A stretch of 34,062 nucleotides of DNA, from contig JAAZVX010000006.1 in assembly GCA_018623095.1 (NCBI GenBank), forward strand, positions 1 to 34,062, in the 5' to 3' direction. The notes below the pieces were generated by a model. It was given only the letters and a program-made list of their open reading frames with translations, ran no database searches and had not been told where the DNA came from. This document shows, in pieces, positions 22,645 through 32,678 of this stretch. Each line of letters begins with the position of its first letter. Position 1 is the first letter of the stretch. The translations under genes were made by a program, and so were the position numbers. Origin of the DNA: Marinobacterium sp. Its GTDB lineage: Bacteria; Pseudomonadota; Gammaproteobacteria; Pseudomonadales; Balneatricaceae.

Positions 22645-24972
22645 ATGCCACTCAAGGTGGAAAAATCGATGCCTGTATTTACATGCCCAACAGGAAAGTC
22701 GATGCCAGAGCGTTATTCGCCCAGACAGTTCTTCCCCTTCCGTCCCGAAGTGATTCTGGGTGTGCTTACGCTGTTTGTTGTCTCCTTGATCTACCTGACT
22801 CTTTTCACTCGTCAGCAAGCGCTTGAAGAGTTGCATCAACAAGCGTCTAGTGAGCTTGATCGTTATCGAGTGTCTGTGGAGCAGCGGTTAGATCGCTTTC
22901 GTAGCTTGCCCGAGCTACTGTCCGATCATGAATTACTAGTGGATGCTGTTACCGGTGCTGAAGAGGAACGTGTTGGGCAAGCCAACCTTTATCTGCAGCG
23001 AGCGGTCGATCTTGTCAATGCGTTGGACATCTATGTGATGGACAGCGCGGGTTTTACCAGGGCATCCAGTAACTGGTTTAAAGAGACCAGTTTTATTGGT
23101 CGAAATTTCTCTTTTAGACCCTATTTTACTGATGCAATGAAAGGTCAGTCAGGGCGCTATTTCGCTTTGGGGAGCACCACGAACAAACGGGGTTACTACT
23201 TCAGCCACCCGATGCACCGCAACGGTGAGATCATTGGCGTTGTGGTGGTCAAAATCGACCTGGATCAGATCGAAGAGCGATGGAATAACGCGGCCTCGGA
23301 AGTCATGGTATCGGATGAAGATGGCGTTATCGTGATCAGTACCGAGCCTGACTGGATGTTCAAGACGCTTAGCCCACTATCAGACGAGCAGTTGAAGCGA
23401 ATAGCCGAGAGTCTTCGATATGGAGACCAACCGCTCAATTCACTTAATATTGCTAAGCGTAGTGTCGAAGATGAACAGTTTGAGGTGATTACGGTACTGC
23501 AAAATGAGAACGACAGCGCTTTGCAGACGGCCGAATTTGAGACTCGTCAGTATCTACTGTTAGCCGACCAAATCTCCGATACGGGGCTGACGGTCCGTCA
23601 TCTGGCTAATCTTCAAACTGTTGAAGATCGTGTACTGGTTGTGCAGCTGATCACGACCATAATGGGTGTGTTGATCGTTCTAGCTAGCCTTGTGGCATTT
23701 CAACGCCGCCGCATACGTATTGAGCGTGAACGCTATACTGAGCGTGAGAATCGCGTTCGAAAAGAGCAGGAAGCGCGGATTGAAGGGGTCATTAACAATA
23801 CTCAGGTTGGTCTCTCTCTGATTGATACAGAGGGTAGGATTGAGTATTTCAACCCAGTGCTTGAGAGGCTGCTGGGGTATCGCTTGGATCAGATCATTGG
23901 TAAGCCATTTCATGAACTACTGTCGTTCCAAGATCAGTTGCTACTGAAACGCTACATTGAGTTAGAAGTCGCAACTCGTGAGCAGCATTTGAAGCTGGAG
24001 GTGGAGTGTCTCAATCCTAATGGCCGCACAATTCCAGTTGAACTGACACTCAGTAATATGGAGCAGAGTGGTCGTTACCACTTAATCGTAACGCTGGTTG
24101 ATATTACCGAGCGTCGCGAGCATTTACAGGCCTTGCAGCAGGCACAAAACGAACTTGAGCAGCGTGTTGCAGAGCGAACCCAGGACCTTCAGGCCGCGAA
24201 CAATAAGCTATTGTCCGAGATCGAAAATCACCAGTTAACTCAGAATGAGTTGGTACAGGCGGCTAAGTTAGCGACCATCGGTCAGATGTCAGCTGGTATA
24301 AACCATGAGTTGAATCAACCGTTGACGGCGATTCGCAACTACGCCGACAACGCACTGAAGTTTCAAACGTTGAACAATGCTGAGCGCGTCACCAGTAATC
24401 TGCAGCAGATCGCTAATCTTACTCAACGCATGGCCAGTATCCTGCACCCCCTCAAGGAGTTCTCTCGCAAACAAGATCCACAGCAGAGTAGCGTGTCGTT
24501 GCGCGATTTGCGTGATGGTGCAATGTCTATTCTGTATGGTCAGTTAGAGCGGCAGCAGGTTGCCATTAGTTGGCCAGAAAACGCCGATAAGATCTGGTTG
24601 AAGGCGGATCTGCTGCGAATAGAGCAGGTGATGGTCAACCTGATCAATAATGCGGCGCAAGCGATGGAGCATAGCACCCACAAACAGATTCAAATTCGTG
24701 CTGAGTCGTTAGGGGAACAGGTCGCTATCTCTGTCTGTGATACGGGACCTGGATTGAGTACTGAGGCGCTTGATCAGATATTCACACCGTTTTTTACGAC
24801 CAAAGAGCAGGGTCTTGGATTAGGCCTTGGCCTATCGATATCGCAGCGGATTGTCGAGTCGCTTGGTGGTATGCTTAGCGCCCATAATTTACCCGAGGGT
24901 GGCGCTGAGTTTCGAATTCTTCTCAACAGCTCGCAACCACCCAGTGTGCATACAGCTAAGGAGTCCGTGTGA
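22645..24972 (+). CDS. Sensor histidine kinase, DctB-like (dicarboxylate-type sensor with extra PAS domain)
   Basis: Periplasmic DIYVMDSAGFTRASSNW...GRNFSFRPYFTDAM...GRYFALGSTTNKRGYYFS; PAS (LSLIDTEGRIEYFNPVLERLLGY); kinase H-box GINHELNQPLTAIRNYADNA. Confidence 0.88.
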   Translation: MPLKVEKSMPVFTCPTGKSMPERYSPRQFFPFRPEVILGVLTLFVVSLIYLTLFTRQQALEELHQQASSELDRYRVSVEQRLDRFRSLPELLSDHELLVDAVTGAEEERVGQANLYLQRAVDLVNALDIYVMDSAGFTRASSNWFKETSFIGRNFSFRPYFTDAMKGQSGRYFALGSTTNKRGYYFSHPMHRNGEIIGVVVVKIDLDQIEERWNNAASEVMVSDEDGVIVISTEPDWMFKTLSPLSDEQLKRIAESLRYGDQPLNSLNIAKRSVEDEQFEVITVLQNENDSALQTAEFETRQYLLLADQISDTGLTVRHLANLQTVEDRVLVVQLITTIMGVLIVLASLVAFQRRRIRIERERYTERENRVRKEQEARIEGVINNTQVGLSLIDTEGRIEYFNPVLERLLGYRLDQIIGKPFHELLSFQDQLLLKRYIELEVATREQHLKLEVECLNPNGRTIPVELTLSNMEQSGRYHLIVTLVDITERREHLQALQQAQNELEQRVAERTQDLQAANNKLLSEIENHQLTQNELVQAAKLATIGQMSAGINHELNQPLTAIRNYADNALKFQTLNNAERVTSNLQQIANLTQRMASILHPLKEFSRKQDPQQSSVSLRDLRDGAMSILYGQLERQQVAISWPENADKIWLKADLLRIEQVMVNLINNAAQAMEHSTHKQIQIRAESLGEQVAISVCDTGPGLSTEALDQIFTPFFTTKEQGLGLGLGLSISQRIVESLGGMLSAHNLPEGGAEFRILLNSSQPPSVHTAKESV

Positions 24973-26330
24973 CAGAGTCTAGAGGTGAAACGGTTCAAGT
25001 ATTACTGGTTGATGATGATACCTACATCTTGGATTCGGCTGGGCAAACACTAGAGCTTGAAGGTCACACTGTGGTGACCTGTGACCGTGCCGATAAAGCC
25101 TTAGAAATGATCAGCCCGGGTTGGTTGGGCATCGTAGTGACCGATATCAACATGCCGGGTATGACCGGTCTAGAGCTGCAGGCTAAGATCAAAGCGATCG
25201 ATTCTGATATCCCGGTCATCATCATTACTGGGCATGGCGATATCTCTATGGCGGTGACGGCTATCCGTGATGGTGCCTATGATTTTATTGAAAAACCCTT
25301 TGCCTCTGAGTTGCTGATCGACGTTGTGCGCCGTGCGATCGAAAAACGCTCTTTGACACTTGAAAACCGAGCCCTTAAAGAGGAGCTAGCCACGCACAAT
25401 GCGGCAGGCCCGCGTCTTATCGGTTCCAGCCCGAGTATTCAACAGCTACGTAACATTGTTCGTGCGGTAGCCGATACCCCGGCCGATATCCTCATCCACG
25501 GAGAGACAGGTGCTGGTAAGGATCTTTTAGCGCGTTATATCCATGAAAACAGCAACCGTCGCGGAGCCAATTTTGTCGCGATTAACTGCGGTGCCGTTCC
25601 AGAAAACCTGATTGAGAGTGAGCTGTTTGGTCATGAGGCTGGCGCATTTACCGATGCCAAAACACGCCGAATAGGTAAGTTAGAACACGCACAAGGTGGA
25701 ACACTTTTCTTAGATGAGATCGAAAGTATGTCGATCGCTTTGCAGGTTAAATTGCTGCGTGTTTTAGAAGAGCGTGTCATTGAGCGTCTAGGTTCAAACA
25801 ACCCGATCTCATTGGATTTAAGGGTCATTGCAGCCTCTAAAGTGGATCTGCGCGAGGCCGCCGACCGAGGTGATTTCCGTGAGGATCTCTACTATAGACT
25901 GAACGTCGTTCGGGTTGACCTACCGTCACTCAGAGAGCGGCGCGAAGATATCCCACTGCTGTTTAAACACTTCGCTCTTGTGGCCTCCGGTCAATTCGGT
26001 CGTGAGGTCGAACCGTTGACCCCCGAGCAGATTCAACAGTTAGTCGCTTACGACTGGCCGGGTAACGTTCGTGAACTGCGCAATGTGGCAGAACGTTTTG
26101 TATTACTTGGTGAGCTGAATTGTGGCGACACAGGGGGTCAGAAGAGCAATCTGAACACCTCCATGAGTCTACCGGATCGAGTTGAGTATTTTGAGAAGAC
26201 CTTGATTCAAACCGAGTTAGCTCGACATGCAGGCTCGATCAAAGAGACACTGGCTGCGTTGGGACTGCCTAGAAAAACGCTGTCCGATAAAATGCGTAAA
26301 TACGGTCTTGATAAAGCGGACTACAAATAA
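24969..26330 (+). CDS. Sigma54-dependent response regulator, DctD-like
   Basis: Receiver domain, AAA+ domain (GETGAGKDLLARYIH, GGTLFLDEIESMS), C-terminal Fis-type HTH; GTGA overlap with the kinase stop. Confidence 0.9.
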   Translation: MTESRGETVQVLLVDDDTYILDSAGQTLELEGHTVVTCDRADKALEMISPGWLGIVVTDINMPGMTGLELQAKIKAIDSDIPVIIITGHGDISMAVTAIRDGAYDFIEKPFASELLIDVVRRAIEKRSLTLENRALKEELATHNAAGPRLIGSSPSIQQLRNIVRAVADTPADILIHGETGAGKDLLARYIHENSNRRGANFVAINCGAVPENLIESELFGHEAGAFTDAKTRRIGKLEHAQGGTLFLDEIESMSIALQVKLLRVLEERVIERLGSNNPISLDLRVIAASKVDLREAADRGDFREDLYYRLNVVRVDLPSLRERREDIPLLFKHFALVASGQFGREVEPLTPEQIQQLVAYDWPGNVRELRNVAERFVLLGELNCGDTGGQKSNLNTSMSLPDRVEYFEKTLIQTELARHAGSIKETLAALGLPRKTLSDKMRKYGLDKADYK

Positions 26331-28559: not shown

Positions 28560-29231
28560 ATGACTCAAGACGAAATGAAACAGGCGGTCGCACAAGCGGC
28601 ACTGGATTATGTACTGCCAAAATTGAAAGCGGATTCGGTGATTGGTATCGGAACCGGCTCTACGGCGAACTGCTTTATTGATGCATTGGCAGCACACAAA
28701 GGTGCATTCGAGTCGGCCGTGGCCAGCTCAGAAGCATCGGCAGAGCGTCTTCGCTCACATGGCATTGAAGTCGTTGATTTAAACTCGGTCTCAGGCATCG
28801 AAGTCTACGTCGATGGCGCTGATGAGTTCGATCCACACCTCAACCTTGTGAAAGGCGGTGGTGGTGCGTTGACTCGTGAAAAGATTGTGGCTGCTGCGTC
28901 TAAAGAGTTTGTTTGTATTGTCGACCAGACCAAACAGGTCGATGTGTTGGGCGCCTTCCCGCTACCAGTAGAGGTGATTCCGATGGCGCGCTCTTACGTG
29001 GCACGCGAACTGGCTAAACTCGGTGTCCAGCCTGAATATCGCCAAGGTTTTGTGACCGATAATGGCAACATCATCTTGGATGTCCACGATATGGAGATCC
29101 TAAACCCTAAAGGTCTTGAGCGTGAATTGAACGATTTGGTCGGTGTTGTGACCAATGGCCTTTTTGCGTTGCGCCCTGCGGATATTGTTCTTATGGCGAC
29201 GCCGGACGGTGTCGAGACACTGACGGTTTAA
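28560..29231 (+). CDS. rpiA: Ribose-5-phosphate isomerase A
   Basis: [61 protein letters not shown]; divergent from ilvA. Confidence 0.97.
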
Positions 29232-29250: not shown

Positions 29251-29278
29251 AAAAAAGGAGCCATTAGGCTCCTTTTTT
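29251..29278. terminator. Bidirectional Rho-independent terminator between rpiA and convergent 40-aa ORF
   Basis: AAAAAAGGAGCC-ATTA-GGCTCCTTTTTT, symmetric with T-runs on both strands. Confidence 0.93.
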
Positions 29279-29292
29279 ATTGGTTGAGTGGT

Positions 29293-29415
29293 TTACCACT
29301 GAACAACCTGAGTAAGTACGATGCTAACTGGCATTGTGATCCAAGCAAGAGCAACTAGGTTGATTGCAATCCAGCCCCAGCCAGATTTGTCACGGAAGTT
29401 TTCGTCGTGTGCCAT
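29293..29415 (-). CDS. Putative 40-aa single-TM microprotein (MAHDENFRDKSGWGWIAINLVALAWITMPVSIVLTQVVQW)
   Basis: Read directly on the minus strand; GAGGG Shine-Dalgarno with 9-nt spacing to ATG 29415; hydrophilic N-terminus then about 25-residue hydrophobic helix; ends just before a bidirectional terminator. Absent from the supplied ORF track, whose shortest entries are 60 aa. Confidence 0.75.
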   Translation of the reverse strand: MAHDENFRDKSGWGWIAINLVALAWITMPVSIVLTQVVQW

Positions 29416-29426
29416 GGTCTTAAACC

Positions 29427-29458
29427 CTCAAATTTGTTGACGTAGATCAAAATTTGAG
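29427..29458 (-). promoter_or_regulatory. 5'-leader hairpin and embedded Anr/FNR-like box upstream of 40-aa ORF
   Basis: CTCAAATTT (29427-29435) and AAATTTGAG (29450-29458) form a 9-bp inverted repeat; between and overlapping the arms TTGACGTAGATCAA (29437-29450), reverse complement TTGATCTACGTCAA. Confidence 0.5.
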
Positions 29459-29520: not shown

Positions 29521-31998
29521 TTACCCATTGTTTTTAAGAATGGCATAGCACTGCTCTATCTTAAGTGGAGCACGCAACAGACTGGCTATCGCAATAAACG
29601 CGAAGCTGGCCAGTGCTGGCAGAGTGAACCACAGCTCCCAGTGAGCAGAGAGCGGTATCTTCAACAAAAACTCATTCATTGCCGCCAAAGTGATCTCTGC
29701 ACTGAACACAGCGAGTGAGCCACAGACCAGTCCCAGCAGACCAAACTCTAAGAGATCAAGGTGTTTAGTCTCAGTCGCTCTTGCTCCTAGAGTTTGCAGC
29801 AGAGCTACCTCGGTTTTACGCTGTTCTAAAGCTTGGAGCAGAGTGATAGTGACCAAAATAAGTCCGGTCGCCAGTGTCATGATTAAAACAAAGGCCGAGC
29901 TTTCCGCCAGCCGTTCTAGCCAACCGGCGAGTTGTTTCATCAGTTGATCGATGTCGATCAGAGTTAATGATGGAAATTCACGCAACAACTCGTTTGCTTG
30001 TGCTTTGCGCTCCTCAGCCAGTTTGAAACTGGTAATCCAAGTGCCTGGGTAAGATTGCAGTGCTGCAGGCGAGAAAATGACGTAGAAATTGGGCTGGAAA
30101 GATTCCCACTTCACCTCTCGTACACTGGTAATGACACCGCTGACGGGTTGTCCTCCGACGTCAAAACCTAATCTGTCGCCCAACTCCAATCCCAGATCCT
30201 CCAGCATGTCCCGCTCGATTGAGATTTGGTGATCGTTCGATTCTGGATCCCACCACTCACCTTGAATGATTTGATTTTGAACGGGTGGTTGCTCACGCCA
30301 GGTCAGGTTTAATTCACGGCGCAGAGAGTTATCCTTTAACTGCTCTTCGTTTAACTGAGGTCTGATCGGCGCATCGTTTAGATCCACTAATCGTCCACGT
30401 ATCATCGGGTAGAGTTCGGTATCAATCTCTCGATCAGCCAAGAACTGATCGACTCCCGGCTTTTGCCACTCCTGGATGTTAATTAAAAAGTAGTTTGGGA
30501 CATCCTCTGGGAATTGCGCTTGCCACTCTTTGACTAGATCCTGACGAGCTACCCAGATCACGCTCAGTAACATCAGCAATAGCACCATGACACCCGCTTG
30601 AAGCCGATGCCATTTACGTTGTTGGCGCAAACGCATGATCAGCAAACGTCCAAGTGCTAGGCGGTTTGCTAAAAAATGCCCAAGGCTATGAAGAATCAGC
30701 TGTGCCAACCAGCCAAACAGAAGACCGCTGATACCGAGCATGACCAGTAACACCGCCGCGGCAGCTGGTGCCGCCAAAAATAGCAGCAATACCGCGCTAA
30801 GAAGGACTAAACTCACGGCATAAAGTCCCCAGCTCGCTTTCTGGGTGGTGCTGCTCTGGTCGCTTCTGAGCAGTTGAGCAACCGGCACCTTAGCCTGTTC
30901 CAGGGCGGGAGGCATGCCAAGTAACAGCAGCATCGCATAGCCCAACGCAGGACCGATGATGTAGCTACTCCACTGGGCATTAGGCAGTGCTTGCGGCAGC
31001 AGACCCGATAACCACAGATCAGCTAAGCTAGCCAGAAGGGCGCCTGCCGTTCCGCCAAGCAAAGCAATGACGGTAGCGGCTATACCGAGCTGCCAAAAAT
31101 AGAGGGTAACCAGTGCCTTAGGTGTAAGACCCATGCTTAGAAAGAGGGCGCTTCGACTCTGTTGTGCATGACCAAAGCGGCGTAGTGCCAACAGAATGGT
31201 CAGTGATGCCAGCAATAGAGTTGTCAGTGAACTCAGGCGAACATAAGAGAGACCGTTAGCCAGTGCATTGCCGGTGACCGGTTGATCGTTGATCAGTGAC
31301 AGTATCCGCTCGTGGCTCTCTAATGTTGGTTTTAACTGCGTTTCAAAGGATTTTAGCGCACTATTTTCACCGCTAATGAGTAGACGAAACTCAGCTCTAG
31401 AACCAGGTCCAAGCACCGCGCTCTTCTCTAGGTCTTGCTTATTCACCAGTAGATGAGGGTTCAATGTATTGAAACCGCTGCCTCTATCGGGCGACTGTTT
31501 CAGTGTGGCTGTTAGCACCAGATCGGCATAACCAAATTGCAGTGTATCGCCTATCGAGAGCCCCAGCTGATCAATAATACGCTCCTCTGCCCATGCCGTT
31601 CCGGGCTCCGGTACGGTGGCTGACATAGGTGGGTCAGTAATGACCTCGCCCCTAAGTGGGTAAGGTGCCGTGATCACTTTAGCTGAACTTAGAATCAAAT
31701 TGTCGCCAGCACCAACCATGGTTGGAAATTGAATAACCTGAGTGGTGGTTAACCCGAGCTCTTTAGCCAATTCTGTGCGTTGTTCGTGAATAGGGCGACT
31801 GGATCGAACGACTAGATCGGCTCCTAACACCGACGCGCTCTCTCTTAGTAATCCACTCTCTAAACGATCACTGACAATCGATAGGAAACTGGTGAGGGTA
31901 ACGGCGAGCAGAGCAGCAAATATTAAGACGCGCCACTCAATGGTTCGCAGTTGCATCCATAGCTGGCGCCTTGCGATACGAGGAATGGCAGAACTCAT
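29521..31998 (-). CDS. ABC transporter permease, FtsX/MacB-like (YbbP type)
   Basis: Start [14 protein letters not shown] at 31998, ATGA overlap with the ATPase gene; large extracytoplasmic domains and repeated FtsX-type TM blocks. Confidence 0.88.
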   Translation of the reverse strand: MSSAIPRIARRQLWMQLRTIEWRVLIFAALLAVTLTSFLSIVSDRLESGLLRESASVLGADLVVRSSRPIHEQRTELAKELGLTTTQVIQFPTMVGAGDNLILSSAKVITAPYPLRGEVITDPPMSATVPEPGTAWAEERIIDQLGLSIGDTLQFGYADLVLTATLKQSPDRGSGFNTLNPHLLVNKQDLEKSAVLGPGSRAEFRLLISGENSALKSFETQLKPTLESHERILSLINDQPVTGNALANGLSYVRLSSLTTLLLASLTILLALRRFGHAQQSRSALFLSMGLTPKALVTLYFWQLGIAATVIALLGGTAGALLASLADLWLSGLLPQALPNAQWSSYIIGPALGYAMLLLLGMPPALEQAKVPVAQLLRSDQSSTTQKASWGLYAVSLVLLSAVLLLFLAAPAAAAVLLVMLGISGLLFGWLAQLILHSLGHFLANRLALGRLLIMRLRQQRKWHRLQAGVMVLLLMLLSVIWVARQDLVKEWQAQFPEDVPNYFLINIQEWQKPGVDQFLADREIDTELYPMIRGRLVDLNDAPIRPQLNEEQLKDNSLRRELNLTWREQPPVQNQIIQGEWWDPESNDHQISIERDMLEDLGLELGDRLGFDVGGQPVSGVITSVREVKWESFQPNFYVIFSPAALQSYPGTWITSFKLAEERKAQANELLREFPSLTLIDIDQLMKQLAGWLERLAESSAFVLIMTLATGLILVTITLLQALEQRKTEVALLQTLGARATETKHLDLLEFGLLGLVCGSLAVFSAEITLAAMNEFLLKIPLSAHWELWFTLPALASFAFIAIASLLRAPLKIEQCYAILKNNG

Positions 31999-32678
31999 GA
32001 CAACTCCTCGATCGCCCCGTTGCTTAATTGAATTCGACGCTGACACCGTTTAGCCAGTTCAAGATCATGTGTAATTAGGATCAGTGTTGTGCCCTGTTGT
32101 TCGTTCAAGGAGAAGAGCTGTTCGACGATCTGCTGGCCGGTCGCTTCGTCTAGGTTGCCGGTAGGTTCATCGGCAAAGAGCAGGGCTGGGTTGCCGGCAA
32201 AGGCACGGGCTATCGCAACACGCTGCTGCTCGCCGCCGGAGAGTTGTGACGGGTAGTGATCCGTTCGATCGCCTAACCCTACATTCCTTAGCCACTCAGA
32301 TGCCTTTGATTCAGCCCCAGCTTGCTGGCGAATCTCAAGGGGTAGGGCAACGTTATCCTGGGCGGTGAGTTCTGGGAGCAGATGAAAGGATTGGAAAATA
32401 AAGGCGATTTTATCGGCTCTGAGTTTGGCGCGTTCTGCATCTGTTAGTGATTCTAACGGTTTTCCTTCAAACTCGACTGTGCCTGAAGTTGCCGTATCCA
32501 AACCGGCCAGAAGACTGAGGAGAGTCGACTTGCCGGCACCCGATTTACCGATGATGGCGATGGTTTCACCGGCATGAATGGTTAAGTTGAGATTGACGAA
32601 CAGATCCAGTGTTCCGCTTCCGGTCTTAAACTGTTTACCCAGTTGCTTTGCTTCTAGTAGAACGGAGCCGCTAGTCAT
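31995..32678 (-). CDS. ABC transporter ATP-binding protein (YbbA/LolD-like)
   Basis: [50 protein letters not shown]; between YbbP-like permease and divergent tesA. Confidence 0.92.

Follow-up and report, generated by a model that had tools for sequence, protein, structure and literature searches.

A conserved 40-residue single-helix microprotein encoded beside rpiA in Marinobacterium co-occurs with the cbb3-type cytochrome c oxidase

The window analyzed here, a stretch of 34,062 nucleotides of Marinobacterium DNA taken at its full length, contains a short reading frame between rpiA and the gene for an FtsX-like ABC permease, and this locus raises the question of whether the frame is a gene and, if so, with what its product works. 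The original prediction proposed a 40-residue protein with a single transmembrane (TM) helix, encoded from ATG to TAA on the minus strand, preceded by GAGGG at 9 nt and followed by a symmetric terminator common to rpiA. Translation reproduces this frame exactly, with its ATG at 29415, its TAA at 29293-29295, and the 40-aa product MAHDENFRDKSGWGWIAINLVALAWITMPVSIVLTQVVQW, and the accompanying signals were found where they had been described. The features of the locus are as follows.

28560-29231, plus strand: rpiA (PF06026), the convergent neighbor
29251-29278, both strands: bidirectional intrinsic terminator common to the microprotein gene and rpiA, from a fold computation
29293-29415, minus strand: HDENF-family 40-aa single-TM microprotein gene, from translation, homologues, pN/pS, and AlphaFold2
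29425-29429, minus strand: Shine-Dalgarno sequence GAGGG, 9 nt before the ATG
29437-29450, minus strand: Anr/FNR-type box TTGATCTACGTCAA, one mismatch to TTGAT-N4-ATCAA
29462-29467, minus strand: predicted -10 hexamer TAGAAT, from sequence and its recurrence in homologues
29521-32046, minus strand: FtsX-like ABC permease of the YbbP type (PF02687), the upstream neighbor

The terminator region is a symmetric array of A-tract, hairpin, and T-tract, in which the hairpin AAAAAAGGAGCC-ATTA-GGCTCCTTTTTT occupies positions 29251-29278 between the stop codons of the microprotein gene and rpiA, and a folding energy of -25.4 kcal/mol (z = -4.9) was computed for its minus strand. This hairpin is absent from the list produced by a simple terminator scan, and an Rfam search of the region found no element. 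Elsewhere in the window (22645-26330, plus strand), a gene for a dCache/PAS sensor histidine kinase is followed by one for a sigma-54-type response regulator, together forming an ordinary DctB/DctD-like two-component pair.

The length of the frame by itself tells little, because when this intergenic stretch is shuffled, 16% of the results have, on the same strand, an ORF that begins with ATG and reaches 40 aa or more. Its codon score (+0.18 per codon, vs -0.18 to -0.60 in the other five frames) corresponds to the 40th percentile among 40-codon chunks of the window's genes. This usage is average, and therefore the proposed resemblance to strongly expressed genes receives no specific support. 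The original prediction had also named conservation of the frame, the codon positions of substitutions, and the occurrence of frameshifts as points on which it could be refuted, and these checks it passed. Homologues occur within the genus and as far away as other orders, the pooled pN/pS across 22 close pairs is about 0.12, and the differences in these pairs at codon positions 1, 2, and 3 number 52, 23, and 184. The frame is thus under strong purifying selection and, given conservation over this range, is a real coding gene. That it is a spurious ORF of the kind yielded by the shuffles can be dismissed in view of the conservation of the protein across orders, the bias of substitutions toward third positions, and the conserved start and Shine-Dalgarno sequence, an SD-like motif preceding 95 of 97 homologues.

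Homologues are single copy in 82 of the 117 genomes, and 12 of the 16 genera, of the window's family, to which Marinobacterium, Neptuniibacter, Neptunomonas, and Amphritea belong, and the gene is also present in Halomonadaceae (42/81 genomes, 14/24 genera). Named homologue records belong to Marinobacterium, Neptunomonas, Neptuniibacter, Pontibacterium, Amphritea, Aliamphritea, Pseudidiomarina/Idiomarina, and Halomonas. A broad class-level sample gave any match in only 6 of 370 genomes, of which the genuine-looking ones are the window genome, one Halomonadaceae genome, and a further genome, G527. In this sample, the recognizable family is rare outside the families listed.

The homologues share the consensus MA-x-HDENFRDxSGxGWIxINLxALxWITMPxSIA..., and we refer to them as the HDENF family. 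Pro29 is invariant across orders, and His3, Phe7, Asp9, and Gly12 are nearly so. Residues 1 to 12 form the N-terminal motif MAHDENFRDKSG, a conserved arm with one widely conserved His and no Cys. An AlphaFold2 model based on 23 homologues (mean pLDDT 77) consists of this arm, which is disordered, and one helix spanning residues 14 to 39, and hydropathy peaks at 2.2 over residues 16 to 34. Conservation together with the predicted single helix supports the earlier description of a real single-TM membrane microprotein. A Pfam search with the microprotein returned zero families at E ≤ 10, including the CcoQ, CydX, and COX4_pro_2 families of small subunits, and searches of NCBIfam, Pfam, and PDB with single proteins and with profiles gave nothing credible. 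The literature was likewise searched for the motif or for another small subunit of cbb3 oxidases, with no match. The HDENF family is new: it is conserved across several gammaproteobacterial families of marine and halophilic bacteria and absent from Pfam and NCBIfam.

The distribution of the gene was compared with those of ccoN, scored as present when TIGR00780 exceeded its cut-off, and of A-type oxidase genes (TIGR02891). All 95 carriers tested encode ccoN (42 Halomonadaceae, 52 members of the window's family, and G527), where one copy cut by contig ends (G820, of the window's family) is counted as present. Among Halomonadaceae, ccoN occurs in 42 of 42 carriers vs 3 of 39 non-carriers (Fisher p = 7e-20 by genome, with relatedness ignored), and by genus in 14 of 14 vs 0 of 10 (p = 5e-7). 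The three discordant genomes, which have ccoN and no microprotein gene, are G901, G902, and G913. A loose genome-wide search of non-carriers recovered a single candidate, the divergent look-alike MAPPKEYHDESGPLWLLALLAVLALNLLPLFLGVSRAVLA encoded in G902. The association holds even within one Halomonadaceae genus (g65), where two genomes (G278 and G908) have neither gene and keep A-type oxidases, and five (G074, G156, G218, G332, and G919) have both. Three genera of the window's family (g3, g5, and g149) have ccoN and no recognizable microprotein gene, and inspection of the rpiA site in ccoN-positive non-carrier genera disclosed no divergent homologue. The microprotein is therefore dispensable for cbb3.

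An assignment to A-type (aa3/bo3) oxidases was considered and rejected, since seven carrier genomes, including the window genome itself (G000, G392, G384, G393, G178, G298, and G870), lack a TIGR02891 match, and two of these (G392 and G178) are complete.

Some further observations concern the oxidase genes themselves. In the window genome, ccoN is located at 15433-16815 of contig C99, and the cbb3 enzyme is the sole heme-copper oxidase found there and in the complete relative G392, neither of which has a CtaD or CyoB match. In both of these genomes and in G178, ccoN is preceded at about 310 nt by an Anr-type box. In the Halomonadaceae genome G074, two CtaD-family matches, each of half length, lie side by side in different frames (contig C1, 2868419-2869932; open frames of 298 and 498 aa). 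The pair may reflect a sequencing error or a broken oxidase gene, and intact copies are present elsewhere in that genome.

A functional link between the HDENF protein and the cbb3 oxidase is well supported. The original prediction had mentioned a small respiratory subunit of the CcoM or CydX type as a formal possibility, which gains support from the near-perfect co-occurrence with ccoN and from the Anr-type promoter boxes discussed below. Note that co-occurrence fits a subunit, an assembly factor, or some other constant companion of cbb3 alike. The likeliest single mechanism, to which we give somewhat more credence than doubt, is that the HDENF protein serves as a single-TM accessory, structural subunit of the cbb3-type (C-family) cytochrome c oxidase. 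Encoded away from the ccoNOQP operon under its own promoter, it would, like CcoM, pack against the CcoNO(Q)P core, with the acidic and His-containing arm (HDENFRDxSG) and the Pro-containing helix docking on the complex. Once docked, it would affect the stability or tuning of the oxidase rather than catalysis. In several lineages, an Anr/FNR box covers the predicted transcription start, by which the protein would be made in the presence of oxygen and its synthesis stopped in anoxia.

Comparison of the loci revealed no fixed genomic partner, the neighbors being lineage specific. Apart from rpiA (PF06026) and the FtsX-like permease (PF02687), the names of neighbors were read off the sequence. In the window's family, the upstream neighbors are ABC genes of the YbbAP type or a gene resembling AsmA, and downstream stand rpiA-ilvA, a MerR gene, or both. 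Most Halomonadaceae have rho-ubiD-reductase upstream and the DAHP synthase gene (aroF) downstream. In Pseudidiomarina, the gene is near a response regulator gene and apt-dnaX, with apt-dnaX downstream, an arrangement of apt-dnaX also seen in G527. Adjacency to ccoNOQP was never seen in the loci read. Because the neighbors differ by lineage, the microprotein gene looks like a stand-alone unit that probably has its own promoter and whose product may act on something encoded elsewhere.

Two of these settings keep a role in copper-dependent assembly under consideration. Many members of the window's family have a MerR-family metal sensor gene directly downstream on the same strand, with a conserved start 31 to 65 nt after the microprotein stop codon; a strict pattern detects it in 16 of 96 loci, most with a C-x7-C loop (MerR-bearing loci: L085, L088, L091, L094, L101, L103-L106, L110, L118, L123, L124, and L126). 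The best NCBIfam match of this sensor is CueR, although the match falls below the CueR cut-off. In Pseudidiomarina, the gene is preceded by a bufferin-like, metal-buffering operon (L137-L140; about 3970-5956 in L137 coordinates) that encodes a Cys-rich repeat peptide and proteins judged by eye to be of the DUF692 and DUF2063 types. Together with the same co-occurrence with ccoN, these neighbors would suit a factor for the assembly of cbb3, or for copper delivery to it, whose His/Asp/Glu arm helps insert metal into CcoN. However, the MerR neighbor is missing from Halomonadaceae, from Pseudidiomarina, and from the clade of the window itself, in which the terminator takes its place. The sensor does not reach the CueR threshold, and an arm that lacks Cys and has only one His of wide conservation would make a poor Cu(I) site. 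We therefore retain this explanation as a rival that is rather unlikely, though the strongest of those considered.

Co-occurrence might also be indirect, such that the microprotein belongs to another part of cytochrome c-dependent respiration, serving, for example, the bc1 complex or an electron-donating cytochrome c. Genes for bc1 and for cytochrome c maturation accompany those of cytochrome c oxidases, and CtaD is more common in Halomonadaceae carriers of the gene (19/21) than in non-carriers (6/16). Against this, four Halomonadaceae genomes (G858, G867, G278, and G908) encode CtaD and have neither ccoN nor the microprotein gene, and no CtaD match reaches the cut-off in two carriers (G868 and G870). 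This alternative is accordingly doubtful.

Promoter sequences may bear on control by oxygen. The box in the window, whose first nucleotide lies 11 nt past TAGAAT, is a predicted operator that would cover transcript positions of about +5 to +18. Same-genus relatives have three perfect boxes, one with a single mismatch, and one weaker match, TTGACCTACATCAT, in the same place. Boxes with at most one mismatch are present in 16 of 97 homologue promoters vs about 0.4 expected (from shuffles, summed over the groups scanned), and 15 of the 16 begin 0 to 14 nt downstream of a TATAAT, TAGAAT, or TAAAAT hexamer. The box-bearing lineages are the window's genus, the M. stanieri-halophilum group, g148, and three Halomonadaceae genera (g419, g420, and g433). 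At this stringency, none of the 43 other members of the window's family has a box, and most homologues are without a recognizable one. Because a box just downstream of the -10 hexamer would block transcription, we infer that Anr/FNR represses the microprotein gene in anoxia in the lineages that carry the box.

Control of this type indicates oxygen rather than one enzyme, and would equally suit a stress or redox membrane microprotein of oxygenated growth that has no respiratory partner and merely shares its lifestyle with cbb3. Single-TM microproteins are often regulatory, and a stand-alone gene in lineage-specific places is in keeping with such a role. Nevertheless, co-occurrence within single Halomonadaceae genera is too tight for lifestyle alone, and we regard this as the least probable of the functional alternatives. 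A structural subunit of the cbb3 oxidase remains our preferred reading, and it is best judged against the small oxidase proteins already described.

Subunit IV of aa3-type oxidases (COX4_pro_2) has a polar, His- and Asp-containing N terminus followed by one helix. The HDENF protein resembles it in this plan but has no Pfam match, and the complete genomes G392 and G178 carry the microprotein gene without an A-type oxidase. CydX, YnhF, and other small subunits of cytochrome bd are, like the proposed HDENF subunit, accessory single-TM microproteins of a terminal oxidase; they differ in that the HDENF peptide lacks a Pfam match and its distribution follows ccoN. CcoQ/FixQ is a small single-TM protein of cbb3 itself, but is encoded within ccoNOQP, and the HDENF peptide again has no Pfam match; the cco operons of G392 and G178 contain a separate CcoQ frame.

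The closest parallel is CcoM of the Pseudomonas stutzeri cbb3 oxidase (PDB 5djq chain N; NF041600). Both proteins have 36 to 41 aa and one TM helix, and both are encoded outside ccoNOQP and tied to ccoN-bearing genomes; an Anr-type promoter box is a further parallel in those HDENF lineages that have one. CcoM has a five-residue N terminus and a Lys/Arg-rich C-terminal tail, whereas the HDENF family has the 12-residue HDENFRDxSG arm and almost no tail. Orthology was rejected: the CcoM model NF041600 (cut-off 40 bits) does not match the HDENF protein at E ≤ 10, whereas the same search recovers CcoM itself at 74.5 bits, and many Halomonadaceae genomes have both genes. Genomes with CcoM over the cut-off together with the HDENF gene include G074, G156, G198, G218, G297, G332, G366, G383, and G103. 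The lack of a model match and this coexistence indicate that the two are distinct proteins. CcoM itself was found in many ccoN-positive Halomonadaceae and in two genomes of the window's family, G104 and G397 (loci L190-L199 and L255-L268).

In CcoM promoters of Halomonadaceae and G397, an Anr-type box precedes a -10-like hexamer by about 22 nt, an activating position, sometimes with a second box further upstream, whereas HDENF boxes are downstream of the -10. These opposite positions suggest that CcoM and HDENF, the latter a putative small cbb3 protein, may be under opposite oxygen control. A more speculative extension, which we consider unlikely on present evidence, is that they are unrelated subunits used alternately, HDENF in oxygen and CcoM at low oxygen, so that exchange of a single-helix subunit would retune the oxidase. 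The cbb3 oxidases carry out high-affinity oxygen respiration in bacteria, but genes as short as those of their small subunits are skipped by gene callers, which has left these subunits poorly catalogued. The HDENF family offers a testable partner, the cbb3 oxidase, and an apparent oxygen switch that works in the reverse sense to CcoM's.
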